A DNA stretch of 64,000 bases from a virus (IMGVR_UViG_3300028920_000041:56931-120930), one strand, 5' to 3'. Shown: positions 8,817 through 57,119, counted from the stretch's first letter. Numbers and translations: made by a program. Notes: generated from the sequence alone by a model not told the origin.

Positions 8817-9257
8817 ATGCCGACTCTGACAGAATCCATCAAACAGCTTGGAGCAAATTACGTGATTACCCAAGGCAGGTACAACCTCACAGCGGATGCA
8901 CTTCGGTTAAGAGACATCAAACCAATTCACTGTGGTGATAAGTATGTTTTTGAATTCAGTCTACAGAACCCGGATGGATCTGAATACGACCTTACAGGCA
9001 AGACTGTCAGGTTTACTGCAAAGTATGTGGTTGGGGATGGTGAAGCAAGCGCTATTGTCCAAAAGACAGGCGTGATAACCAATCCTCCAGGAACCGATGG
9101 ATTAGTTACAGTGACTCTAACTCCGACAGATGTATCCGGTCCAGAGTTGATAAGAGGACTTTATGATCTGCAAGTAGCAACAGATGCAACAGACCCTGAA
9201 ACGTTCATTTGGGGTGACATAGAGTTCCTGCCAAACATCACAGAGACAGTGCCATGA
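8817..9257 (+). CDS. Ig-like/BppU-like virion protein
   Basis: 146 residues. The pattern GDKYVFEFSLQNPDGSEYDL followed by TGKTVRFTAKY, VTVTLTPTDV and LIRGLYDLQV resembles the beta-sandwich N-terminal domain seen in BppU-type baseplate and other phage structural proteins (domain resemblance only). A 76-base gap precedes it; no hairpin or promoter is convincing there, and the Shine-Dalgarno is weak. The stop overlaps the next ATG (ATGA). Probably a small decoration or baseplate-associated protein. Confidence 0.5.
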   Translation: MPTLTESIKQLGANYVITQGRYNLTADALRLRDIKPIHCGDKYVFEFSLQNPDGSEYDLTGKTVRFTAKYVVGDGEASAIVQKTGVITNPPGTDGLVTVTLTPTDVSGPELIRGLYDLQVATDATDPETFIWGDIEFLPNITETVP

Positions 9258-9397
9258 ATGAGTCTATAAGAGAAGTGTTGAAAGAGCATTGTCTAACAGA
9301 AGACAAAAAGATTGTAGCATACCACGGTGGACCTAAACCTATCCGTAGATTTGATCCAAAGAGAGTCAAAGTTGTTAAGACAGAAAAGATTAAGTAA
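9254..9397 (+). CDS. 47-residue peptide: targeting-like leader plus ADP-ribosyltransferase-like fragment
   Basis: ATGA overlap with the upstream stop gives the start. Residues 1-15 (MNESIREVLKEHCLTE) are an amphipathic helix ending in Leu-Thr-Glu, like the leaders of the neighbours at 10109 and 11304. Residues about 19-33 (IVAYHGGPKPIRRFDP) resemble the 'YHG...F..FD' start of ADP-ribosyltransferase-like domains common in phage heads, but the protein ends 14 residues later, so no active enzyme is possible. Best read as a remnant of a packaged ADP-ribosyltransferase or a minimal leader peptide. Translation is plausible from the coupled start. Confidence 0.45.
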   Translation: MNESIREVLKEHCLTEDKKIVAYHGGPKPIRRFDPKRVKVVKTEKIK

Positions 9398-9406
9398 AGT
9401 ATATCC

Positions 9407-9541
9407 ATGACAGCTAATTTCTTCTGGGACTGGTTACGCATCGTAGGTTTCCTGACTATAGGTTTGATTGTATCTATCATCATCGCACTTTTTGGTATCA
9501 GTATCTCTCACCAGAGACGGAAAAATGATAACAAATCCTGA
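9407..9541 (+). CDS. 44-residue membrane protein (paralog A)
   Basis: ATG at 9407, stop at 9539-9541. One hydrophobic helix (residues about 11-33, IVGFLTIGLIVSIIIALFGI) follows WDWLR, and the tail is basic (HQRRKN). It aligns along its length with the next gene's product (YLKIIGFVAVCLLIAVLIALIGI, then DKRDEKK), and the two genes overlap by 17 bases in different frames. They look like a tandem duplication of a tiny single-span membrane protein. The role is unknown; small holin-like or envelope functions are possible. Confidence 0.5.
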   Translation: MTANFFWDWLRIVGFLTIGLIVSIIIALFGISISHQRRKNDNKS

Positions 9542-9677
9542 TATTTTGGATTACCTCAAGATCATAGGGTTTGTAGCTGTTTGTTTGTTGATAGCTGTTC
9601 TTATTGCACTTATTGGAATTTACGTTTCAGATAAAAGAGACGAAAAGAAGATAAAGAAGATCAGGAGACGAAGATGA
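9525..9677 (+). CDS. 50-residue membrane protein (paralog B)
   Basis: The start is taken at ATG 9525 rather than an upstream TTG, because MITNPDILDYLKIIGF then lines up with the N-terminus of the neighbouring 44-residue protein. One transmembrane helix (about 12-33) is followed by a strongly basic tail (KKIKKIRRRR), placing the C-terminus in the cytoplasm. It overlaps the upstream gene by 17 bases and the next start by 4 (ATGA). Function unknown. Confidence 0.5.
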   Translation: MITNPDILDYLKIIGFVAVCLLIAVLIALIGIYVSDKRDEKKIKKIRRRR

Positions 9678-10099
9678 GTGCCTTTTGCCGTATCAGAGCA
9701 AACGACGTAGCCGACATTTCCAGACTGGCTCTAGCCAGAGGCCTTGAGCATAACATCATGCCGTTTGAAGGAGATGACTACGCTGATTGGGTTACGGTTC
9801 AGTTAACCAATGATAGAAGCCGCAGAGCTTTCGAGAATCTGTGTGCTGAAAACAACGTTACGGTTGACGGTAGGCAGGTGATCCACCGTATGACCGATGC
9901 TGTGCTAGCAGGCACTTCTCCAGAGCGTGCAATGGATGAAGCTCTAACAGGCGGCATGAAACGAGCTATGACAAACGGAGCTAAGTATACCTGTGGTGAT
10001 TGCGGTTTGCCGATCCCTAGGTACAGAGGCAGGTACCCTACTACTTGCCCGGAGTGCAATGGCGAGTTGACTCCACCCCATGAAAGACCGGCAGAGTAG
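9674..10099 (+). CDS. Zinc-ribbon protein with shared VLxGxSPE helix motif
   Basis: 141 residues. The C-terminus carries two Cys pairs (YTCGDCGLPIP and TTCPECNGEL), a zinc ribbon. Residues about 70-92 hold a helical motif (MTDAVLAGTSPERAMDEAL) that recurs in the products at 10985, 12389 and, in looser form, 13493, although those proteins are otherwise unrelated. The N-terminal about 65 residues look like a small alpha/beta domain. It lies in the cluster upstream of the head protease, so a virion or head-assembly role is suggested by position. Confidence 0.55.
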   Translation: MSAFCRIRANDVADISRLALARGLEHNIMPFEGDDYADWVTVQLTNDRSRRAFENLCAENNVTVDGRQVIHRMTDAVLAGTSPERAMDEALTGGMKRAMTNGAKYTCGDCGLPIPRYRGRYPTTCPECNGELTPPHERPAE

Positions 10100-10108
10100 G
10101 AAACTCCT

Positions 10109-10975
10109 ATGGAACACCTAAAGAGCGTTATCCGTCAAAGTATTTTAACTGAAAGCTTCCTAAAAGAAGACGATGCAGGTGATCCACCCAAGACGCTCAA
10201 AGTCAAAGACACAGCCGGTAAAGATGTTCTGAGCTACTTCTATAGCGGTGTACTGGATAACTACAAGCTAAAGCCTGATCAAGTCATGGCCATGATAGGT
10301 GGTGGTGACATTGATAAAGGCAAACAGATGTTCGTTGCCAACTTCAACACACTTCGTAAAGCGGCGAGCAGTAGTGGCAAGCCTCCCAGAGCTTGGATGC
10401 CTGTCATAAAACCTAATGACATACCAGGCCTTGTAAGAGCGCTCAAAGCAGGCCAGATAGACATCGCTATCCCGCATGCAGATCTCAAGAAGAAAACAGA
10501 GAGCTTTCTATCAGCGTTGAATGACATGTTGACAGAGGCTCCAAAGTATAAAGACAAAGAGATTGATATGGCTAAAGGCAAAGGACAGCCTAAGCCAGCG
10601 CCTGACAAAAAGACCTTTCTCAAGAAAGGGACTATGGACAATGTCAAAGCTGATGACATTGTCAGAGGCATCAAAGTTGCTGAGATACCGGTTAAGCAGC
10701 TAAAGCCGTCTCAAGATGAAATCTATGGATCTAAGATTGCTTTGAACATGACAAAGATGGGACCAACGGTAGGTGGCAAGACTGCTTTTGGTGAGCCTGA
10801 CATCATTGTTACTTCAGATAACTACATACTAGATGGTCATCATAGGTGGGCTACAGCGTGGGCCGGTCACCCAAGCAACAAGATAAAGGTTACTGTGATC
10901 CCACTGCCACTAAAGCACCTGTTCTTGGTTCTGAGAGCATATGGTGCAGCACTTGGCAATCCACAGCAGTCCTAG
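10109..10975 (+). CDS. ParB/sulfiredoxin-like domain protein with head-targeting-like leader
   Basis: 288 residues. Residues 1-16 form an amphipathic leader ending in Ile-Leu-Thr-Glu (RQSILTES), similar to T4 capsid-targeting peptides that are cut after hydrophobic-x-Glu by the prohead protease. A second LTE lies at 141-143. Residues about 185-288 are a ParB/sulfiredoxin-like domain with VKQLKPSQDEIYGSK, TSDNYILDGHHRWATAW (key DGHHR at 242-246) and a closing helix. Such domains bind nucleotide phosphate and in some cases have nuclease or kinase-like activity. The context before the prohead protease suggests a packaged, injected protein; this is inference. Confidence 0.65.
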   Translation: MEHLKSVIRQSILTESFLKEDDAGDPPKTLKVKDTAGKDVLSYFYSGVLDNYKLKPDQVMAMIGGGDIDKGKQMFVANFNTLRKAASSSGKPPRAWMPVIKPNDIPGLVRALKAGQIDIAIPHADLKKKTESFLSALNDMLTEAPKYKDKEIDMAKGKGQPKPAPDKKTFLKKGTMDNVKADDIVRGIKVAEIPVKQLKPSQDEIYGSKIALNMTKMGPTVGGKTAFGEPDIIVTSDNYILDGHHRWATAWAGHPSNKIKVTVIPLPLKHLFLVLRAYGAALGNPQQS

Positions 10976-10984
10976 GAGATAACA

Positions 10985-11293
10985 ATGGTTGCTGAAAAGA
11001 TGATCGAAGCAGTACTCGAAGGTAACACTGCTGAAGATGTTATGACTCAAACTCTTTCAGAGAAGAGCGAAAGAGTACATACCATCTGGCGTCATATACC
11101 CGATGACTGGAAAGCACAGTTTGAAAAAAAGAAGCTTAAAAGGAAGTCTGGCGAAGATGAAGTGATCACCATGATACCTGACTATGGCGAAGTATCAGCC
11201 GGTAAGGGTATGTTCAAGCTAAAGACAATAGAGCCAGGAAAAGCGTCAATCAGAAAAGTCATCAGAGGCCTAACCGGAATGCAGAAGTGGTAG
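10985..11293 (+). CDS. Small protein with VLxGxT motif leader, unknown
   Basis: 102 residues after a good Shine-Dalgarno (GGAGATAACA). Residues 5-26 (MIEAVLEGNTAEDVMTQTL then SE) match the helical motif of the neighbours at 9674 and 12389 and end in Leu-Ser-Glu, a plausible prohead-protease site. The remainder is basic and polar (FEKKKLKRKSGEDE), with a short beta C-terminus. Probably a small head-associated protein by position and leader; no enzyme motif is seen. Confidence 0.5.
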   Translation: MVAEKMIEAVLEGNTAEDVMTQTLSEKSERVHTIWRHIPDDWKAQFEKKKLKRKSGEDEVITMIPDYGEVSAGKGMFKLKTIEPGKASIRKVIRGLTGMQKW

Positions 11294-11303
11294 GGGATCT
11301 ATT

Positions 11304-12014
11304 ATGAACGAAACTATACTAGATGTTATCAGTAAGAATCTTGTAGTAGAAGCAACATCACTTCAACCTGTAACAAGGACTTTTAAGAGGTTTTTGAAAT
11401 CAAAGGTTGTTCCTTATCTAACCAGATCCACAGGGCAGGAGTGGCAGGTTTCTAATCTTGGAGGTAAGTCTTCTGGAAGGTTTGTAAAATACTATGTCAA
11501 TACAAACGGATCTCCAAGGTTAGAAATTAGTTGGGAGTTTGAAGTTGCTAAAGCTGCAAATGAAGATGAGTTCAACCTGAGAATTTACTTCACCAAGGAC
11601 AATAACATACTTGGTCAGTATATTTATGGAGTTCAGGGGCAAGGTAATAGCTATATTAAACAAAACGATTTGAAAGACTTAAATAAGTTGGTTCCAGAAG
11701 TGATTATAACCGCTATAGAAGGATCAAAAGTTACTACAGTTCCCACTAAAGAGATTGAAGCTATAACTAAAGAGATTGAAGCTATAAAATCATTATCAGA
11801 AAGCTTGGATAGAACTTTATCTAAAGTTCAAAACTTTGTTCCAAAGTTTAATGATATAGTTAAAAAAGCTCTTAAATCTAAAGATCCGCAGAGGGAATTA
11901 GTTAATAGCTATAAACTTCTTTCTAGCATAAAAAAGACTCATCTCAGCGGGTATATATCACCACCGGATAGATCAGCTAAGAGTATACTTGAGCGTATTA
12001 AAGATCTATCTTAG
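11304..12014 (+). CDS. Putative head-internal protein with LVVE leader, unknown
   Basis: 236 residues. The N-terminus (MNETILDVISKNLVVEATS) parallels those at 9254 and 10109: an amphipathic helix ending in hydrophobic-x-Glu followed by a small residue. Residues about 30-130 look alpha/beta (GQEWQVSNLGGKSSGRFVKY, LEISWEFEVAKA). The C-terminal half is helical and includes the direct repeat TKEIEAI twice in tandem. Bases are A-rich relative to neighbours. No family recognised; position and leader suggest a protein packaged in the capsid. Confidence 0.5.
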   Translation: MNETILDVISKNLVVEATSLQPVTRTFKRFLKSKVVPYLTRSTGQEWQVSNLGGKSSGRFVKYYVNTNGSPRLEISWEFEVAKAANEDEFNLRIYFTKDNNILGQYIYGVQGQGNSYIKQNDLKDLNKLVPEVIITAIEGSKVTTVPTKEIEAITKEIEAIKSLSESLDRTLSKVQNFVPKFNDIVKKALKSKDPQRELVNSYKLLSSIKKTHLSGYISPPDRSAKSILERIKDLS

Positions 12015-12378
12015 GCTAAATAAAAATCAACATGACAGCTCAAGAGAGAGACAAGTTCGCAAGAGCAGTATTCGACGGTTCGTTCTTCCAGTACTGGAAG
12101 CTAAAGGACATGACTACTCTGGCGATGAAGACATAAACAGTAACTTTCCCATTGTTGCTAGACGGATGAAAGAGGAAATAGACAAATACGATGTCTGGCA
12201 AGTGTACTTCACAAAGCACATGATGGCTATCGAGACATGGCTAGAAGACAGGGAAGTCAAGAGTGAGCCGATCCACATGAGAATAGTGGATGCTATTAAC
12301 TATCTCATCATCTTATGGTCTATGGCAGCAGACCAAGGCCTTATGCCAAGTGCTATAGACGTACCTCAACAAATGTAA
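11989..12378 (+). CDS. DUF1599/nucleotide-modification-associated domain protein, apparent 5' frameshift
   Basis: The conserved core is clear: KGHDYSGDEDINSNFP, then WQVYFTKHMMAIETWL and EPIHMRIVDAINYLIILWSM, the signature of the DUF1599 (nucleotide modification associated domain 1) family found in many phages. The in-frame start is poor (TTG at 11989, inside the upstream gene). A better N-terminus, MTAQERDKFARAVFDGSFF, begins at ATG 12032 in the other frame and would join the core by a -1 shift (equivalent to one missing base) near 12085-12095. Either the gene is broken, the assembly lacks a base, or it shifts frame. The family is linked to phages with modified bases; its activity is unknown. 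Confidence 0.6.
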   Translation: MSVLKIYLRLNKNQHDSSRERQVRKSSIRRFVLPVLEAKGHDYSGDEDINSNFPIVARRMKEEIDKYDVWQVYFTKHMMAIETWLEDREVKSEPIHMRIVDAINYLIILWSMAADQGLMPSAIDVPQQM

Positions 12379-12388
12379 AGGATCTACC

Positions 12389-12982
12389 ATGCCGCCTGCA
12401 ATGGTTAAGAAATGGGCCAAAGAAAAGGGTATGAGTACCAAAGAAGCAGAACGCAGGTGGGCCAAAGCTAAGCTACTCGCTTCAAAGCAAGGTCGCAATC
12501 CAGAAATCACTGGTGTTAACAAAGACTGGGAGTATGTAGTCGGTATATACAGAACTATGATGAAAAAGAAGCCTAAAACAGAGTCTCTGATACACAAAAG
12601 TTTAATCGAGACAATGATCGACCAAGTACTGAACGGCAAGTCTCCCAGTCAATTGATCCATAGTTTCTTTGCAAGTAGTTCGTCAGACAGTACACCGATT
12701 CGGGAAAGTGATAACACTATCAACGTTGGCGATAGCTACGTCCAAAACAAAAATTTGCGTACATTTTTCGACGGTGAGGGAAAACTTAGGTTTTGCACTA
12801 CCGAGAATGTACTAATCAGGCCAAACAGTGATCCTCGATTATTAGAACTTGTTGCATACGCTGACTGTTTGAGTGTTGATAACCCTCTGTTTGATGTGTT
12901 TGAGTCTTACGAGGGTTCGTTAGAAGATTTGTATGATCAAGTAACAAGTGCATACTCTTTGGTAACACAAACAGGTGCATAA
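12389..12982 (+). CDS. Head-cluster protein with phage KEKGMSxxEAE domain
   Basis: 197 residues after a good ribosome site (AAAGGATC). Residues 1-55 form a basic helical domain (VKKWAKEKGMSTKEAERRW, WAKAKLLA) of a kind common in large myovirus virion proteins. Residues about 75-95 carry the shared motif (MIDQVLNGKSPSQLIHSFF). The C-terminal half is acidic and unrelated to its neighbours. The mixture of a basic DNA-facing segment and a cluster-specific motif fits a head-associated protein; not proven. Confidence 0.55.
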   Translation: MPPAMVKKWAKEKGMSTKEAERRWAKAKLLASKQGRNPEITGVNKDWEYVVGIYRTMMKKKPKTESLIHKSLIETMIDQVLNGKSPSQLIHSFFASSSSDSTPIRESDNTINVGDSYVQNKNLRTFFDGEGKLRFCTTENVLIRPNSDPRLLELVAYADCLSVDNPLFDVFESYEGSLEDLYDQVTSAYSLVTQTGA

Positions 12983-12983
12983 A

Positions 12984-13496
12984 ATGCTAGTTGGACAAGA
13001 ATACACAGTCATTGGTTGGTGTAAGAACAGACTGATTTTGCGTGACAAGATCATGTTGCAAAATCTACTAGAGGAAGTCTGTTTTGTTATTGACATGACA
13101 TCGCTCGGATCTATCGGAGTTAATGTTCCTATCGAACTTGACAAGTTGAACAAAGATAAATTCGAAGATGAAGGTGGTTCTACGTCTTGTGTTCTGGCTG
13201 GAAGAGTAGACGCGAATCAAGCTTCACTGGTCTTGTCTACCAGTCACGCAAACATTCATGGCTGGCCAGACAGAGACGTTAATAGAGATGATGGTGGCTT
13301 CTTTTGGTTTACGGTAGGTTCCTGCAGGCCTTTTAAGACAATGAAAGTTGATAACTGGCTACATGAGTACTTGAAAGCTACTCACGTAAAGCGGATCTCC
13401 AGGTGGATTGAGTACAAGGATGGAGTGTTCATGCACTCCGAACAAGGCCTCCCTTCAGGAATTGGAGTATCTTCTGAACAAGGATTCATAGGATGA
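12984..13496 (+). CDS. Hypothetical protein
   Basis: 170 residues from ATG 12984 (an upstream in-frame GTG at 12975 overlaps the previous gene and lacks a ribosome site). Predicted alpha/beta, with RLILRDKIMLQNLLEEVCFVID early, a Gly/Ser-rich middle and WLHEYLKATHVKRISRWIEYKDG late. No catalytic pattern or membrane segment. It overlaps the next gene by ATGA. Family and function not recognised. Confidence 0.5.
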   Translation: MLVGQEYTVIGWCKNRLILRDKIMLQNLLEEVCFVIDMTSLGSIGVNVPIELDKLNKDKFEDEGGSTSCVLAGRVDANQASLVLSTSHANIHGWPDRDVNRDDGGFFWFTVGSCRPFKTMKVDNWLHEYLKATHVKRISRWIEYKDGVFMHSEQGLPSGIGVSSEQGFIG

Positions 13497-13807
13497 TCAC
13501 AGCACAAGAGCTTATAGAGAACTATCTGACTTCTGATATGGATGCAGAGGAAGTTATTGATGAAGTCATTGGACGCAGTAAAAGAACGTTTCGTAGACCT
13601 AGAAAACGAAGGTTCAGGAAGCGTGGCTCTGCTGTAGATCCTATCACCGGAAAGAGGAAAGACCCGCGCCGTAGGCGTCTAATGCGCAAAGTACGTAGAC
13701 GCTTCAAGTCCAAGTTCAAGCGTGCAGCAAAGCTTAGGGCGAGAAAGCTCAAGTCCAGAGGCTTCTATAAGAAGCTTGGCAAGCTTGCCGCTCGCATCCG
13801 TCGATAA
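13493..13807 (+). CDS. Protamine-like basic protein with acidic leader
   Basis: 104 residues in two halves. Residues 1-27 are acidic and helical (MITAQELIENYLTSDMDAEE), a loose match to the shared motif of nearby genes. From residue 28 on nearly every second residue is Arg or Lys (RRPRKRRFRKRG, RRRRLMRKVRRRFKSKFKR). The basic half should bind DNA strongly; the acidic leader may mask or target it. Position two genes before the prohead protease suggests an internal head protein that condenses packaged DNA after leader removal. This is inferred from composition and context. Confidence 0.55.
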   Translation: MITAQELIENYLTSDMDAEEVIDEVIGRSKRTFRRPRKRRFRKRGSAVDPITGKRKDPRRRRLMRKVRRRFKSKFKRAAKLRARKLKSRGFYKKLGKLAARIRR

Positions 13808-14071
13808 ATGCCAAGATACTACAAACCAGTAGATCCAAAATACATCATCAAGATTGATGTCTTGGAACTACCTCAAGTCTATGCAGCAGGTGAAGGACAG
13901 TACGAGCTAAGGCAAGCTGATACTCCAGATAAGTATGAACTACATGATCTATTCTCACTTAAAAGAACGTTGAAAACGATAATGCCGAAACGAGTTGATG
14001 ACATCTTGTGTCGGCTGCAGAACTTCAGAGTTGCCTATTTGAATGTAGCAACCGGAGAAATTACGTCATGA
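13808..14071 (+). CDS. Small hypothetical protein upstream of prohead protease
   Basis: 87 residues, starting directly after the upstream TAA and ending in an ATGA overlap with the protease gene. It has a short beta-strand N-terminus (KYIIKIDVLELPQVY) and a helical second half. No known motif. Tight coupling to the protease suggests a head-assembly accessory, but nothing in the sequence fixes its role. Confidence 0.5.
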   Translation: MPRYYKPVDPKYIIKIDVLELPQVYAAGEGQYELRQADTPDKYELHDLFSLKRTLKTIMPKRVDDILCRLQNFRVAYLNVATGEITS

Positions 14072-15507
14072 CACAACTTGTTGAGGTACAGCCTTTTAAC
14101 TATGCAATCGTTGAAGGGAAGGCTAAGCCTGGAGTCCTTTTGACTCTGGAAGGGACTTTTCAACGGGCTGGTACAAAGAACGCTAACGGTAGGATCTATC
14201 CGTTGCCTCTTTGGAAAAAGTTGATGTCTGATGAAGATGTCAACGAAAGGATCCAAGCCAGAAGGATGCTTGGCCACTTGGACCATCCTTCAAGTGGTGC
14301 GACTTCTCTAAGTTGTGTGTCTCACGTAGTTACAGAGCATAAGCTTCAAAGCGATGGCAGTGTAAAGGGTAAGCTTGAAATACTTGATACACCAATGGGT
14401 CAGATTGCTTCTACACTTGCTAAAGCAGGTGTTCAGTTCGGTGTGTCTTCAAGGGGTGATGGTTCTGTCGAAAGGAAAGGAGATGTAGACGAAGTACAGA
14501 ACGATTATCGACTAGAAACGTATGATCTTGTGTTAAAGCCTTCGACTCCAGGCGCTTACCCTCAGATTGTTGAGTCAGAGGAAAAAGCAAAGGAGAATCT
14601 AGATCTCATCGCACAAGCAGTTGAAGGACTTGTCAATCGCACTAATGAAGTTGATGTGCTATTAGAGTGTCACAAAATAATCAGTGTCCTGGAAGGCTGC
14701 AACGAGCGTCGAGAGCAGATCTTAGCCGAGCTAAAGACAAAGCTTGGTACTGGTCAAGAGGAACAAGAAAAAAGAGAAACTCACGATTCGGAGGGACTAA
14801 AGATGACGGGAACTAATGCTGTTCCGAATGCTCCGACTGCTACGCCACAGCTTACAATTTCTCCTGAGATGAAAGACTATCTCCAGGAATGGGTTGATAA
14901 AGGTGTGGAGGAAGCCGTTGCAGCTAAGAACGAAGAGATTAACGATTTGAACGAAAGGATCGTTGGTCTGGTCAATGAACGAGATGAGCTTGTTTTACGT
15001 ATGGGTGCGGCTGAGCAGTTGATCGAGGAGTTCACTCGTAAGGTCAAATCTCTGAGTGACAATCGCACTACAGACGAAGAGCTTCACGAAAGGTTTGACG
15101 CTTCTGTGTCATTGCTTGATGAAGCGATGTCAAGGTTGCAGGAGCTAGGCGAGACGCAGAGGCGTTTAGCTGCAGCCGAAGAGCTTCTTCAGGCTTCTAT
15201 TTGTCGAGCGCAAGTGGAGTCTGTTGCAGCTAGCATTGAAGAGAAGATAGAAGACCTTGACGAATCAACGCAAGAGACGCTTAGGACGTTGCTTGAGGAC
15301 TGCGAATCTGCCGAGGAAGTAGATAGCAAGTTTTCTCAGCTTGAGAGTCTGATTGAAAGCCAGAGTGATGGTTTTCCGGAGCCTGTTGTCAGGGAACCGC
15401 TGCCATCCAGAACAGGGAATCTGACAGAAGACCAGATCGGTAACGCTCGTTCGAACGGACCTAAAGACTTCATTACCAGTAGGCTTCTTTCGAAGATTGC
15501 TGGTTAA
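14068..15507 (+). CDS. Prohead protease (T4 gp21-type) fused to scaffold/core domain
   Basis: 479 residues from the ATGA-coupled start at 14068. Residues about 10-175 match the gp21/S77 family: GTKNANGRIYP at 35-45, the catalytic-His region MLGHLDHP (His70, His73), VSSRG with nucleophile Ser at 127-128, and a later Asp (YDLV, 153). Residues about 250-450 are long acidic coiled coils, as in scaffold/core proteins. So protease and scaffold are one polypeptide. It would cut itself and head proteins during maturation. An internal start at 14803 probably makes the scaffold alone. The major capsid gene follows. Confidence 0.85.
   Translation: MTQLVEVQPFNYAIVEGKAKPGVLLTLEGTFQRAGTKNANGRIYPLPLWKKLMSDEDVNERIQARRMLGHLDHPSSGATSLSCVSHVVTEHKLQSDGSVKGKLEILDTPMGQIASTLAKAGVQFGVSSRGDGSVERKGDVDEVQNDYRLETYDLVLKPSTPGAYPQIVESEEKAKENLDLIAQAVEGLVNRTNEVDVLLECHKIISVLEGCNERREQILAELKTKLGTGQEEQEKRETHDSEGLKMTGTNAVPNAPTATPQLTISPEMKDYLQEWVDKGVEEAVAAKNEEINDLNERIVGLVNERDELVLRMGAAEQLIEEFTRKVKSLSDNRTTDEELHERFDASVSLLDEAMSRLQELGETQRRLAAAEELLQASICRAQVESVAASIEEKIEDLDESTQETLRTLLEDCESAEEVDSKFSQLESLIESQSDGFPEPVVREPLPSRTGNLTEDQIGNARSNGPKDFITSRLLSKIAG
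14803..15507 (+). CDS. Scaffold protein from internal in-frame start (nested)
   Basis: In frame with the protease, ATG 14803 is preceded by a strong Shine-Dalgarno, GGAGGG at 14790-14795, 7 bases away, and falls at the boundary between the protease and the coiled-coil region. Translation would give a 234-residue acidic coiled-coil protein (MTGTNAVPNAPTATPQ start). The arrangement matches phage lambda C/Nu3, where a scaffold is made in excess from within the protease gene. The site is seen; its use is inferred. Confidence 0.55.
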   Translation: MTGTNAVPNAPTATPQLTISPEMKDYLQEWVDKGVEEAVAAKNEEINDLNERIVGLVNERDELVLRMGAAEQLIEEFTRKVKSLSDNRTTDEELHERFDASVSLLDEAMSRLQELGETQRRLAAAEELLQASICRAQVESVAASIEEKIEDLDESTQETLRTLLEDCESAEEVDSKFSQLESLIESQSDGFPEPVVREPLPSRTGNLTEDQIGNARSNGPKDFITSRLLSKIAG

Positions 15508-15550: not shown

Positions 15551-16972
15551 ATGATGATTATTGGAATTGACGAACACAAGGCAGAGCACAATAAGATGCT
15601 TAGTGTTGGGCACTCTTTGGCCTCGAATTACAACATGACCCTTTACGAGAATGAAAAAGAGGGTCGTAAGATGTCCATGGGGGAGCTTCTGGAAGGCCTC
15701 CCGGAAGATTCTTTGGTTCGTGCTCACACAGCAGTTATGGTTGAAAACACTCGTCGCTATTTCAACTCGCTAGATGAGACAACCAAGCTTGTGAACATCG
15801 GTGATTTCGAAAAGTACGCTTACCCGATGGTTCGGGCGGTGTTCCCGAACCTTGCTGCGCACAACTTGGCTTCTGTACAGCCGATGCTGGGTCCCGTCTC
15901 TTTAGTGTTCTACATGAAGTTCATCTATGGTCTGACCAAAGGATCTGCGGTCGCGGGTACAGACATCATCGAAAACCCGAATCAGAACTATGCTTCTGAG
16001 GATATCGATGAAGAAAACGTCGGTACGGGCACTGGTGTTGCTACTGCTTTTACAGGAAACCTGTCTTACCTTCCGGTGAAGCCTGGTACGGTGAAGTTCA
16101 CAGGCGATGTTAGTGGTGTTCTGCTTGAGGTAACGGACGATGGCAACGGGAACATGATCGGTGATATTGGTGTTGGTACCAATACCATCAATTACGTTAC
16201 CGGCGCTTTCAACTTCGATTTCTCCAGCGCTATCGATAGCGGAGATCCGGTCAATGCTGCTTACAGCTATGACTTGGAAGGTAACGATACCATCCCCGAT
16301 ATTGATATGCAGCTTACTTCGAGTCCGGTTGTTGCCACGACTCGTAAGCTTAGGACTCGGTGGAGCCTTGAGGCTGCGCAAGATCTTAGGAACCTGCATG
16401 GTCTTGAGGCAGAGGTTGAGCAAGTCGCGGCAGTGTCCAATGAGATGAAGTTTGAGATTGACCGCGAAGTGATCGACAACATGGCGGCTATTGCTAACGG
16501 CTCTGTTGCAGCGTTTAGCAAGACACCCCTTACTGGTATCTCGTTCACAGAGCATAAGCTCGGTTTCGTAGACACACTGATTGCTGCCTCTAATGTGATC
16601 TTTGGTGCTACGCAGCGCGCTCTTGGAACGTGGATTATCGCCGGTCTGAATGTCACCAACCTGATCGAGTCCCTTCCGGGCTTTGTCCCCTCGCCACGTC
16701 CAAAGGGAACGAGGGCGGTTTACAAGGCTGGCGTGTTAAATGGCCAGTGGGACATCTGGAAAGATCCAAACTACGGTGTTAACAACTACCTCATGGGGTA
16801 CCAGGGTGATGCAATGTGGGAGGTTGGCTATATCTTCGCTCCTTACATCCTGGCCTACACGACTGCTACGATCATGCTGGATGATTTTGTCGGTCGTAAG
16901 GGTATCTCTTCGCGGTATGGCAAGAAGGCTATTGATGGTAACTTCTACTGCCAGGGCAGTGTAACCGCATAA
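15551..16972 (+). CDS. Major capsid protein (T4 gp23-type) with inserted beta module
   Basis: The start is set at ATG 15551 because GGAGG sits at 15544-15548. 473 residues. Family landmarks: RAVFPNLAAHNLASVQPM, GPVSLVFYMKFIYG, TRKLRTRWSLEAAQDLRNLHG and the C-terminal GYIFAPYILAYTTATIML. Residues about 165-250 are an inserted beta domain (VKPGTVKFTGDVSG, DDGNGNMIGD, NTINYVTGAF) of the same type as the C-terminus of the protein at 19202. The N-terminal about 45 residues may be removed by the prohead protease, as in gp23. Codon use is richer in C and G than neighbours, as expected for a very highly expressed gene. A strong terminator follows. Confidence 0.92.
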   Translation: MMIIGIDEHKAEHNKMLSVGHSLASNYNMTLYENEKEGRKMSMGELLEGLPEDSLVRAHTAVMVENTRRYFNSLDETTKLVNIGDFEKYAYPMVRAVFPNLAAHNLASVQPMLGPVSLVFYMKFIYGLTKGSAVAGTDIIENPNQNYASEDIDEENVGTGTGVATAFTGNLSYLPVKPGTVKFTGDVSGVLLEVTDDGNGNMIGDIGVGTNTINYVTGAFNFDFSSAIDSGDPVNAAYSYDLEGNDTIPDIDMQLTSSPVVATTRKLRTRWSLEAAQDLRNLHGLEAEVEQVAAVSNEMKFEIDREVIDNMAAIANGSVAAFSKTPLTGISFTEHKLGFVDTLIAASNVIFGATQRALGTWIIAGLNVTNLIESLPGFVPSPRPKGTRAVYKAGVLNGQWDIWKDPNYGVNNYLMGYQGDAMWEVGYIFAPYILAYTTATIMLDDFVGRKGISSRYGKKAIDGNFYCQGSVTA

Positions 16973-54308: not shown

Positions 54309-57119
54309 ATGGCTTTCAAGACTCGGCTACGCGGTATCTTTGGTTGGTCTTCGAACAAAAGACCAATGTCAAGGCCTACACTCAAAGATATTGCTCTACA
54401 GACACAGCAAGTACAGTCCGCTGCAGATCGCTATCACAGCGAAATGGACTTTTTACACAGAAGACGACAAGACAGATATGATGTCTATGATGCTATGGAT
54501 AACATGTCTGATGTTGCTTCTGTGCTTGATGCTTATGCCGAGGATGCTGTCCAGCTAGATCCAGAGCACAAGAAGTCAGTTTGGGTAACAGCAAAAAAGA
54601 CTAAAACAAAAAAGCTACTAAACTCATTTTTACATGAAACGCTGAACACTGAAGACTATGTAGAGGGTCTGTGCAGAGATGTTGCCAAGATGGGTGATGA
54701 CTTTGCTCTAGTCAAAGCTCAGAGGGGTAAAGGTGTTACGTCTTTAGTCTGGAGAGATCCTAGGGACATTGAAAGAATTGAAAACCTCGAAGGTATCTTG
54801 ATAGGCTTTGAAGAGACAGCTTTACTTGGTTCCTACAGACAAAGAGTCAACTCTGAAAGACAGCAGGGACGAGATGGCTCCAGTGTGAAACCATCCTATG
54901 AGCCATGGGATGTTATCCACTTTAGGATCTTCAAAAAGAAACGACTGCCGAAAGAGAAGAAACCAAACATCTACGGAACGTCTGTACTAGCAGGTTCAGA
55001 GAGAGTAGCGAAGCAAGTTAAGATACTGGACGACTTGCTTATGATTATGAGGCTCACAAGATCTCTAGACAGATATACATACTACGTTGACGTAGGTCGG
55101 TCACCGGTAGAAGAGGAAGTCAATATCTTACGTCGGTGGAAACAAGCGCTTAAAAGAAAGACCTATTTCGACCCTGCAACAGGACAGTTCGACTCCAGGT
55201 TCGATCCCTATGCTTGGTGTATCACAGGAGATACTAAAATATCTCTACTCGACGGCCGTGAAAGGACTGTTGAGCAACTTGTTGAAGAGTATGGAACAGA
55301 TAAATCTTTTTGGGTGTATTCTAGGGACAAAGAAGGCTATGTTGTTCCAGGGAAAGCAAAGTGTGTAGGCAAGACACGACTTGATGCTGAGCTAGTAAAA
55401 GTAACTCTTGATAATGGTCAGTCTGTCAGGTGCACACCGGATCATAGGTGGATGCTCAAAGACGGCTCATACAAGGAAGCAGAGAAACTAACATCAGGGG
55501 ACAGCTTGAGTCCTCTGTATAGATCTGTCAATAGAGAGGGGTATGAAACCTTCCTTCAGAAGGCTAAAAGAGGTGGTAGGTGGGACTGTACCCATATAAT
55601 GGTAGCTGAAGCTATGTATGGAGCAGAGGCTGTAAGGTACAATGATCCTCCCTTAGACTACACAGGGATTAACAATGTACATCATCTAAAAAAACACAAT
55701 AACAATTCCCCTGAATGCTTGGTTCTTATGGGGAAAGCCGAGCATATGGAAGAGCATAGAAGGTTAAGGGAGAATGATCCGGTTGCTCTCGAAGAATTTG
55801 AATGTAAGAGGATAGAAGCGCTAAGGAAATCAGGATATTCTCCAGCTAGAGCTAAAGCAATGCGGGTTAGGTGGGAAGATCCTTGTTTCAAATCTGTGAT
55901 GTCTCAAGCTGTTTCTGAAAGTTGGAATGATGAGAATAGCAGAGCCAATAGAGTAGAAGCTATCTCTTCCAGGAATAAGAGGTTATGGAGAGATCAAGAC
56001 TACAGAGAAATGATGAAGAGAAGCGCTCGAAAGGAGTTGAGAAGAAGATACCTAGAGCTTGTTGAAGAAGCTGTGTCTATGATGGTCAAAGAGGGTTTCG
56101 ATCCTATGACTGAATGGGATATTGCTAGAGACTATCTTATGACTATAGGGTTGCTACCACCAATCACTCCAAAATGGGAGAAAGCTTTAGGGTACATAGA
56201 ACTTGGGGAAGGTATCCTAGGTGATGCTAACCATAAGGTTGATTCTGTTGAATTTTTGAGTGATCGTGAAGATACTTATGATATTACAGTTAAGGACCAC
56301 AACAACTTTGCTTTGACTGCAGGTGTTTTTATTCATAACTCCGAAGACATTTTTTGGTCAGTAAAGGAGAATAGGAATTCACGTGTCGAAGTACAGCAAG
56401 GGATCACAAACATATCAGACATTGTAGATATTGACCACTTCAGAGATAAGTTCTTTGGTTCTTTAAGAGCACCAAAGGCTTATTTCGGATATGACGGTGA
56501 ACATAATTCTAAGGCTTCCTTGTCAAGCCAGTCTTTAAAGTGGTCTAAAGCAGTGACTTCGATACAAAGAGCTGTTAAGCAAGGCTTGACTCGTTTGTGC
56601 CAGATACATTTGGCTTATCTAGGTCTTGACACAAATGCAGATCAATTTGAAGTCCATATGACACCACCTTCTATTGTTGAATTACTGGATAAGCTGGAGG
56701 CCTGGCAGAATGTGGTTGATGTGGCTGAAAGGATGTCAACGCTTGGTGAAACACTGAATCTTGATAAGTATGACTGGACAGTGTACATTCTCGAAAACGT
56801 TATGTGGTTGTCTAAAGACGAAGTTAAAAAGTTTACTAAGAAGATACCGAAAGATGCACCGCAAGAAGAGCCAGACGATCAGCAGCAGAAACCCACAGAG
56901 CCTCCACAGCCATTTGACACACCGTTTACAAAGCCTGGTGGACAGCCACAACCGGCTGATGTAGTTGGCAAGGGTCCGAAAGAGCCAGAGGAAAAACCTC
57001 AAGCACAGCCTGAAGAAGGCTATGGTGCAAATGGTAAAAGCACAGTACAGCTTGCTAGTATGGAAGTGGATAAGTTGCTTTTAGAGATCAAAGATTACAT
57101 GGAAGCTAGAGTTAACTAA
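54309..57119 (+). CDS. Portal protein (T4 gp20-type) interrupted by an HNH intein
   Basis: 936 residues as translated, 562 after splicing. The N-extein (1-303) has SVLDAYAEDAVQLDPEHKKS, EPWDVIHFRIFKKKRLPKEK, RLTRSLDRYTYYVDVG and KTYFDPATGQFDSRFDPYAW. The C-extein (678-936) starts SEDIFWSVKENRNSRVEVQQ and has DIDHFRDKFFGSLRAPKAYF. Both match the gp20 portal family, the ring through which DNA is packaged. The splice junctions (Cys304 and Asn677/Ser678) fall in the conserved 'D-P-x-x-(W/I)-(x)-E-D-(I/F)-F' portal segment. The Pro/Gln-rich tail may be flexible. The portal lies about 37 kb from the capsid genes, unlike T4. Confidence 0.88.
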   Translation: MAFKTRLRGIFGWSSNKRPMSRPTLKDIALQTQQVQSAADRYHSEMDFLHRRRQDRYDVYDAMDNMSDVASVLDAYAEDAVQLDPEHKKSVWVTAKKTKTKKLLNSFLHETLNTEDYVEGLCRDVAKMGDDFALVKAQRGKGVTSLVWRDPRDIERIENLEGILIGFEETALLGSYRQRVNSERQQGRDGSSVKPSYEPWDVIHFRIFKKKRLPKEKKPNIYGTSVLAGSERVAKQVKILDDLLMIMRLTRSLDRYTYYVDVGRSPVEEEVNILRRWKQALKRKTYFDPATGQFDSRFDPYAWCITGDTKISLLDGRERTVEQLVEEYGTDKSFWVYSRDKEGYVVPGKAKCVGKTRLDAELVKVTLDNGQSVRCTPDHRWMLKDGSYKEAEKLTSGDSLSPLYRSVNREGYETFLQKAKRGGRWDCTHIMVAEAMYGAEAVRYNDPPLDYTGINNVHHLKKHNNNSPECLVLMGKAEHMEEHRRLRENDPVALEEFECKRIEALRKSGYSPARAKAMRVRWEDPCFKSVMSQAVSESWNDENSRANRVEAISSRNKRLWRDQDYREMMKRSARKELRRRYLELVEEAVSMMVKEGFDPMTEWDIARDYLMTIGLLPPITPKWEKALGYIELGEGILGDANHKVDSVEFLSDREDTYDITVKDHNNFALTAGVFIHNSEDIFWSVKENRNSRVEVQQGITNISDIVDIDHFRDKFFGSLRAPKAYFGYDGEHNSKASLSSQSLKWSKAVTSIQRAVKQGLTRLCQIHLAYLGLDTNADQFEVHMTPPSIVELLDKLEAWQNVVDVAERMSTLGETLNLDKYDWTVYILENVMWLSKDEVKKFTKKIPKDAPQEEPDDQQQKPTEPPQPFDTPFTKPGGQPQPADVVGKGPKEPEEKPQAQPEEGYGANGKSTVQLASMEVDKLLLEIKDYMEARVN
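55218..56339 (+). mobile_element. Intein with HNH homing endonuclease domain in portal gene
   Basis: 374 residues (304-677 of the precursor). Splice blocks: N-terminal CITGDTKISLLDG; block B TPDHRWMLKDG with its T-x-x-H at 376-379; C-terminal block DTYDITVKDHNNFALTAGVF then IHN before Ser. The HNH-type endonuclease sits in the middle: NNVHHLKKHNNNSPECLVLM followed by EHMEEH (about 457-483). The endonuclease would spread the intein to intein-free portal genes. It looks complete and active by motif. Confidence 0.88.

Follow-up and report, generated by a model that had tools for sequence, protein, structure and literature searches.

Candidate capsid-targeting leaders on unrelated basic proteins of an uncultivated T4-like phage

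Introduction

Experiments have identified the proteins carried in T4-like heads in a handful of phages. In T4, the internal proteins IPI, IPII, IPIII and Alt possess capsid-targeting sequences that are cut by gp21. This protease cleaves after L/I-x-E, the first ten residues of IPIII are enough for targeting, and the T4 internal proteins are basic (PMC9026906). In an uncultivated virus, several small proteins encoded upstream of the prohead protease gene begin with a short segment ending in hydrophobic-x-Glu, and the question arises whether these segments are packaging tags of the T4 type. The viral record (G000) comprises 120,930 bases; the window, the whole stretch of DNA that was analyzed, spans 64,000 nucleotides (G000:56931-120930), and L002-L004 denote stretches of the same record outside it.

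Results

Setting of the locus

Judged from its sequence, the G000 phage is an uncultivated T4-like myovirus. The window contains the T4-like marker genes for a prohead protease, a major capsid protein (phrog_138, E 3e-50), a tail sheath and a portal protein. No relative of G000 was found by a nucleotide search of the phage collection or by single-protein scans of viral contigs with the protease and with the 10109 protein; relatives were retrieved when the major capsid protein was used as the query against the viral contigs. The portal gene (window 54309-57119) possesses an intein-like insert with a match to HNH endonucleases, and a terminase-like protein in L003 (3480-6800) seems to hold a similar insert. 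The features of the locus are listed below; type A designates the leaders, type B a different motif, and a slash marks the predicted leader end.

9254-9397, plus strand: ORF of 47 aa, consisting of a type A leader (9254-9301, MNESIREVLKEHCLTE/D) and a 31-residue basic remnant
9674-10099, plus strand: zinc-ribbon-like protein with internal type B motif (9884-9943)
10109-10975, plus strand: 273-aa basic protein with a ParB/sulfiredoxin-like domain in its C-terminal part, preceded by a type A leader (10109-10153, MEHLKSVIRQSILTE/S)
10985-11293, plus strand: 102-aa protein, not type A; residues 4-22 (10994-11050) form a type B motif
11304-12014, plus strand: 220-aa basic protein of no recognized family, preceded by a type A leader (11304-11351, MNETILDVISKNLVVE/A)
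12389-12982, plus strand: protein with internal type B motif (12608-12667)
13493-13807, plus strand: very basic 104-aa protein (pI 12.0) with degenerate N-terminal type B motif
14068-15507, plus strand: LxE-rich gp21-type prohead protease (phrog_207, E 3e-46) with a scaffold-like C-terminal half
15554-16972, plus strand: major capsid protein with LYE in its N-terminal part, predicted to be cut after about 15649; LYE/LWE at the equivalent position in four close relatives
L004:2552, upstream of the window: type A leader MPGRVESIRQVLRSTLLE/S
L004:3113, upstream of the window: type A leader MPGKVESIRQVLRESLLKE/A
L004:3706, upstream of the window: type A leader MPDTVQESIRDSLRATLLE/G
L004:12099, upstream of the window: type A leader MIQESTLDVFKKLVLTE/A

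Seven N-terminal leaders form one family

The initial annotation had proposed four leaders upstream of the prohead protease gene. Those at 9254, 10109 and 11304 are present as described; the fourth, TQTLSE at 10985, attained a profile score of 2.7 compared to 24-33, and the protein belongs to type B. The larger half of the leader set lies outside the window, at G000:40054-54578, where four leaders are found in a bigger gene cluster. All seven leaders are N-terminal, 15-19 residues long and end in hydrophobic-x-Glu, the ending being LxE in six of them (LTE, LTE, LTE, LLE, LLE, LKE) and VVE in the 11304 protein. We give the family consensus as ESIR-VL---LLxE.

The seven leaders had been chosen by eye ahead of scoring, and in a leave-one-out profile each of them outscored all 1395 N-terminal placements in other proteins; merely 0-7 of 41,442 14-mers anywhere scored as high as the left-out leader. 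When a family model, itself built from the seven leaders, was run against all 120,930 bases in six frames, exactly these seven were returned (E 8e-9 to 4e-6), with zero matches in the replication half of G000. The bare tripeptide [LIV]xE at positions 9-20 was not enriched in the stretch of the initial annotation (5/12 proteins vs 3.0 for shuffled N-termini, p 0.13); it was found in 8 of the 17 proteins of the upstream cluster (3.6 in shuffles, p 0.005) and was at or below expectation in two control sets. It is the mutual similarity of the seven leaders that goes beyond chance.

As had been stated earlier for the leader-bearing proteins, the mature parts of the seven display no detectable mutual relation (best blastp E 0.07); paralogy of the whole cargo as a source of the leader likeness was consequently rejected. 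The pI of the mature cargo is 9.5-10.5 in all seven cases, while 17 of 125 other proteins reach a pI of at least 9.4. The amphipathic character ascribed to the leader helices is present but modest, their hydrophobic moment ranking at the 73rd-96th percentile of other N-termini. In the AlphaFold model of the 10109 protein, residues 2-13 of the leader form a helix, which is part of a tail modeled with low confidence and separate from the folded part. We regard the leaders at 9254, 10109 and 11304, together with the four upstream copies, as one real leader family.

Protease and cleavage sites

The C-terminus of the protease carries a conserved REPLP that is followed by an LTE/LQE/LNE site in relatives. 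Near the N-terminus of the capsid protein, LYE or LWE occupies one position in five related phages, and LAE occurs nearby in other relatives. The presence of a gp21-type protease and of LxE-type capsid sites, combined with the known specificity of T4 gp21, predicts cleavage after the final Glu of the leaders.

Cargo and neighboring proteins

The 10109 protein matches phrog_2859 (E 5e-9), and the DGHHRW motif of its ParB-like domain is invariant in 15 homologues. A first-pass Foldseek search with this protein was not significant (E 4.9) and no PDB sequence match was found; in a structural second look, 18 of the 18 listed entries were ParB/Noc/Srx/SbnI-type proteins or unnamed chains (Z 2.8-5.5). 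The ADP-ribosyltransferase-like cargo that had been suggested for the 9254 ORF was not borne out: its remnant gave no family match, including to any ADP-ribosyltransferase, and its best phage tblastn match had an E of 6. By tblastn, no phage homologues were found for the cargo of L004:3113, L004:12099 and 11304. The cargo of L004:3706 possesses a HEATH motif (zincin-like). L004:4497 is weakly similar to PARP (Pfam E 0.003, below cut-off), has an Mrr_N-like end and carries an internal type B motif, not a type A leader; L004:8984 has a DnaJ-like match below cut-off.

Among the other genes of the window, 9407-9541 and 9525-9677 encode adjacent small membrane proteins that are seemingly duplicates of each other. 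A phrog_6802 match at 11989-12378 is in a reading frame that has no evident ATG start, with a nearby ATG (12032) in a different frame, which may reflect a frameshift or an unusual start. A SAM-decarboxylase-like protein (12984-13496; Pfam match below cut-off), with an orthologue in the related contig L006, is encoded among the head-cargo genes.

Homologous cargo in other phages

Hundreds of relatives of the 10109 ParB-like domain are present in viral contigs, and we located homologues by their cargo sequence, not by their leader. In 17 of 21 ParB homologues, sampled at rough steps down the homologue list, with some loci possibly sharing ancestry, and with starts assigned by a first-ATG rule set after viewing where GTG or TTG was offered, the N-terminus contains [LIV]xE with its Glu at residues 7-20 (shuffle mean 6.0, maximum 13 in 5000); the corresponding figure for control proteins is 17/97. 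The leaders of the homologues differ from one another in sequence. That of the L147 homologue is MKHIKTYQEFINE/D, which we take, by inspection only, to be close to the capsid-targeting leader of T4 IPIII; the window leaders display no likeness to the IPIII leader by inspection. Another cargo homologue starts with MKSFNEFLNE/K. In two unrelated contigs, L187 and L188, the prohead protease gene is followed after 4 and 11 bp by the start of the ParB-like gene, whose neighbors begin in a leader-like fashion as well (MKRADLRKLIQPMVKECVRETLLE/E and MANVIAESKLRLIIEEEIRGTLAE/T). A gp21-type protease is encoded in 8 of the 20 ParB-homologue records, many of which are fragments.

Homologues of other cargo conform to this pattern. 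The homologue of the L004:4497 ART domain in Stenotrophomonas phage RAS14 carries the leader MKIQTLLQLLNE, followed by AETKPILAYH (MKIQTLLQLLNE/AETKPILAYHATS), and that in L106 carries MKINSILESVLNE/R. In Salicola phage SCTP-2, the L004:9342 domain has paralogues that begin with MKVKHITQYLFE/S. The best independent support for the leaders is, in our assessment, this comparative evidence, i.e., homologous cargo with [LIV]xE leaders of its own in unrelated phages.

Three further observations concern other genomes. Phage SCTP-2 (L104, L105) encodes a domain with a TKWC[TI]A-type motif seven times, mostly behind a near-identical N-terminal leader. An ATP-grasp-like protein adjoining the ParB-like gene of L147 (L147:1820-2839) has the leader-like start MAILSFEQWSITE. 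In the huge phage LR756501 (L096:3509-4945, minus strand), three repeats of a DPY(G/C)EE-W...(F/I/L)NE linker are present, which could be protease sites between packaged domains.

Conservation among close relatives

The phage represented by L006, whose capsid protein is 79% identical, keeps the protease, the capsid protein, the basic protein, the SAM-decarboxylase-like protein and the type B proteins, and is without the type A genes 9254, 10109 and 11304. In the records of the relatives, no type A leader was found except for one weak match (L090 at 3969, MSYGEYTVNESLRAVITQQMLQE/A, E 0.03). From their absence in L006, the type A genes can be considered accessory. The internal-protein genes of T4 are accessory likewise (PMC9026906).

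A second motif marks the same gene clusters

Type B is a 20-residue motif with the consensus xxMIEAVLxGxxPxxVVxxx, whose pattern suggests a hairpin-like arrangement of helix, Gly turn and helix. When a type B profile was built from relatives only (L006, L008, L009, L015), the top nine of 132 G000 proteins were all encoded in the two head-cargo clusters. By six-frame search, the motif is strong in eight G000 proteins: it is N-terminal in 10985, L004:7527 and L004:13691, internal in 9674, 12389, L004:562 and L004:4497, and near the C-terminus in L004:54. The L006 orthologue of 9674 has a motif-like stretch at the equivalent position, and that of 12389 starts with the motif. The basic protein at 13493 is real and strongly basic, but it possesses a weak type B motif instead of a type A leader; the motif is strong in its L006 orthologue and in the equivalently placed basic proteins of L008, L009 and L015. 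The L009 record contains four type B copies, each in a different protein. By eye, type B resembles a motif of T4 gp67/gp68; this assignment was rejected by the profile, which scored bits below zero and under many shuffles.

Because the motif marks the same clusters as the head cargo, a role of type B in the prohead core is plausible. It is conceivable, although on balance we would not expect it, that type B serves this phage group as a further, portable module for head docking, one that works from any position in the chain and anchors diverse proteins to the prohead core alongside the cleavable leaders of type A.

Discussion

Most likely, the type A leaders are T4-type capsid-targeting sequences that load basic cargo into the prohead and are then cut by the gp21-like protease. 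During prohead assembly, the short N-terminal leader helix would dock its cargo protein to the scaffold core, and the gp21-like protease encoded nearby would cut after the final leader Glu (LTE, LLE, LKE or VVE), so that unrelated basic proteins would remain within the head. Among these would be the ParB/sulfiredoxin-like protein, the HEATH-motif (zincin-like) protein and several orphans; a putative PARP-like ADP-ribosyltransferase with an internal type B motif sits in the same cluster. The packaged proteins would probably enter the host along with the DNA. Docking, cleavage and packaging are deduced here from the likeness and placement of the leaders, from the protease and the basic nature of the cargo, and from the equivalent leaders on homologous cargo in unrelated phages. 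The earlier proposal of T4-type leaders cut by a gp21-like protease is, with the exception of 10985, well supported by the leader statistics, the protease, the capsid LxE sites, the basic cargo and the homologues; of the 9254 example, hardly any cargo is left. Counting against it, the VVE of 11304 lies outside the strict L/I-x-E specificity of T4, the type A genes are missing in L006, the leaders were chosen by eye ahead of scoring, and the bare [LIV]xE pattern is common.

The genes had also been viewed as an injected effector set. This view reaches further than the data: packaging of the leader-tagged cargo in the head is likely, but injection and effector action are suggested solely by analogy with T4 Alt, IPI and the polyvalent ParB/ART proteins; delivery of the cargo as effectors seems to us somewhat probable. 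The leaders might instead target the head while the cargo is structural, i.e., consists of basic proteins that condense or neutralize head DNA and do not act on the host. All mature cargo is basic, several cargo proteins lack a recognizable enzyme domain, and T4 IPIII affects head morphogenesis (PMC9026906). However, the ParB/Srx-like, the PARP-like (weak Pfam match, E 0.003) and the HEATH-motif proteins of the clusters look enzymatic, and polyvalent phage proteins that are packaged typically contain domains of this sort (PMC5512222). We consider a structural role of the cargo possible but rather unlikely.

According to a refinement that is compatible with the capsid-targeting interpretation, a single scaffold-binding helix, 'hI..VL', would exist in two forms, of which type A is cleavable and removable and type B is retained in the protein. 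The starting cores are similar (SIREVL and MIEAVL), both motifs are present in the same two gene clusters, and the relatives-only type B model weakly matches three type A leaders (E 1.1-3.5). These matches, however, fall short of significance, the refined type B model misses the type A leaders, and about half of the type B copies are without a following hydrophobic-x-Glu; we find it doubtful that the two motifs are forms of one helix.

That the leaders are oligomerization or partner-docking helices of a non-head complex, their hydrophobic-x-Glu being incidental, appears improbable. LxE-ending helices are common, as the 17 of 97 control proteins illustrate, but the leaders are exclusively N-terminal, the cargo is unrelated and basic, and the clusters lie in the virion gene region; moreover, homologous cargo of unrelated phages carries different leaders with the same ending, and in two cases its gene directly adjoins that of the protease. 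A chance combination of short hydrophobic N-termini with a common tripeptide, although in line with the lack of tripeptide enrichment within the stretch of the initial annotation alone, is strongly disfavored by the leave-one-out profile, the uniform basicity and the homologue survey, and we judge it very improbable.

If the capsid-targeting interpretation is correct, the leaders would represent new packaging tags, with type B as a possible position-independent docking motif. A leader family that can be recognized in sequence, and that is supported by homologous cargo with equivalent leaders elsewhere, would allow head cargo to be predicted in uncultivated genomes, and it would connect a T4-type delivery route with the 'polyvalent' domains of the ParB-like and ART kinds. 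In the open-licence literature, we found no earlier description of such leaders on ParB-like proteins.

Several known systems invite comparison. T4 gp67 and gp68 are, like the window proteins, small and encoded just upstream of the protease gene, and both gp68 and the 13493 protein are very basic in their C-terminal part; the type B model, however, matches neither T4 protein. SPN3US and phiKZ process several unrelated inner-head proteins after Glu, as is predicted here, but most of the propeptides there exceed 100 residues, and SPN3US has the motif A-x-E (PMC5694885). Packaging in phage heads has been predicted for polyvalent proteins that contain DdrB-like ParB, ART and metallopeptidase domains (PMC5512222). 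The G000 clusters hold the same kinds of domains; while polyvalent proteins combine up to 15 domains in one chain, those of G000 are mostly separate proteins, several with a leader of their own.

The closest parallel is provided by the capsid-targeting sequences of T4. In both systems, the leaders are N-terminal, about 10-20 residues long and end in hydrophobic-x-Glu, the cargo is unrelated and basic, a gp21-type protease is encoded, and the accessory genes are variable. G000 differs by its ESIR-VL---LLxE family in place of the IPIII leader, by one VVE site, and by seven copies in two clusters, known here from sequence alone, with ParB-like and other cargo. The principle of a packaging tag is thus known from T4, whereas the leader family, the set of two clusters, the support across phages and most of the cargo are new.
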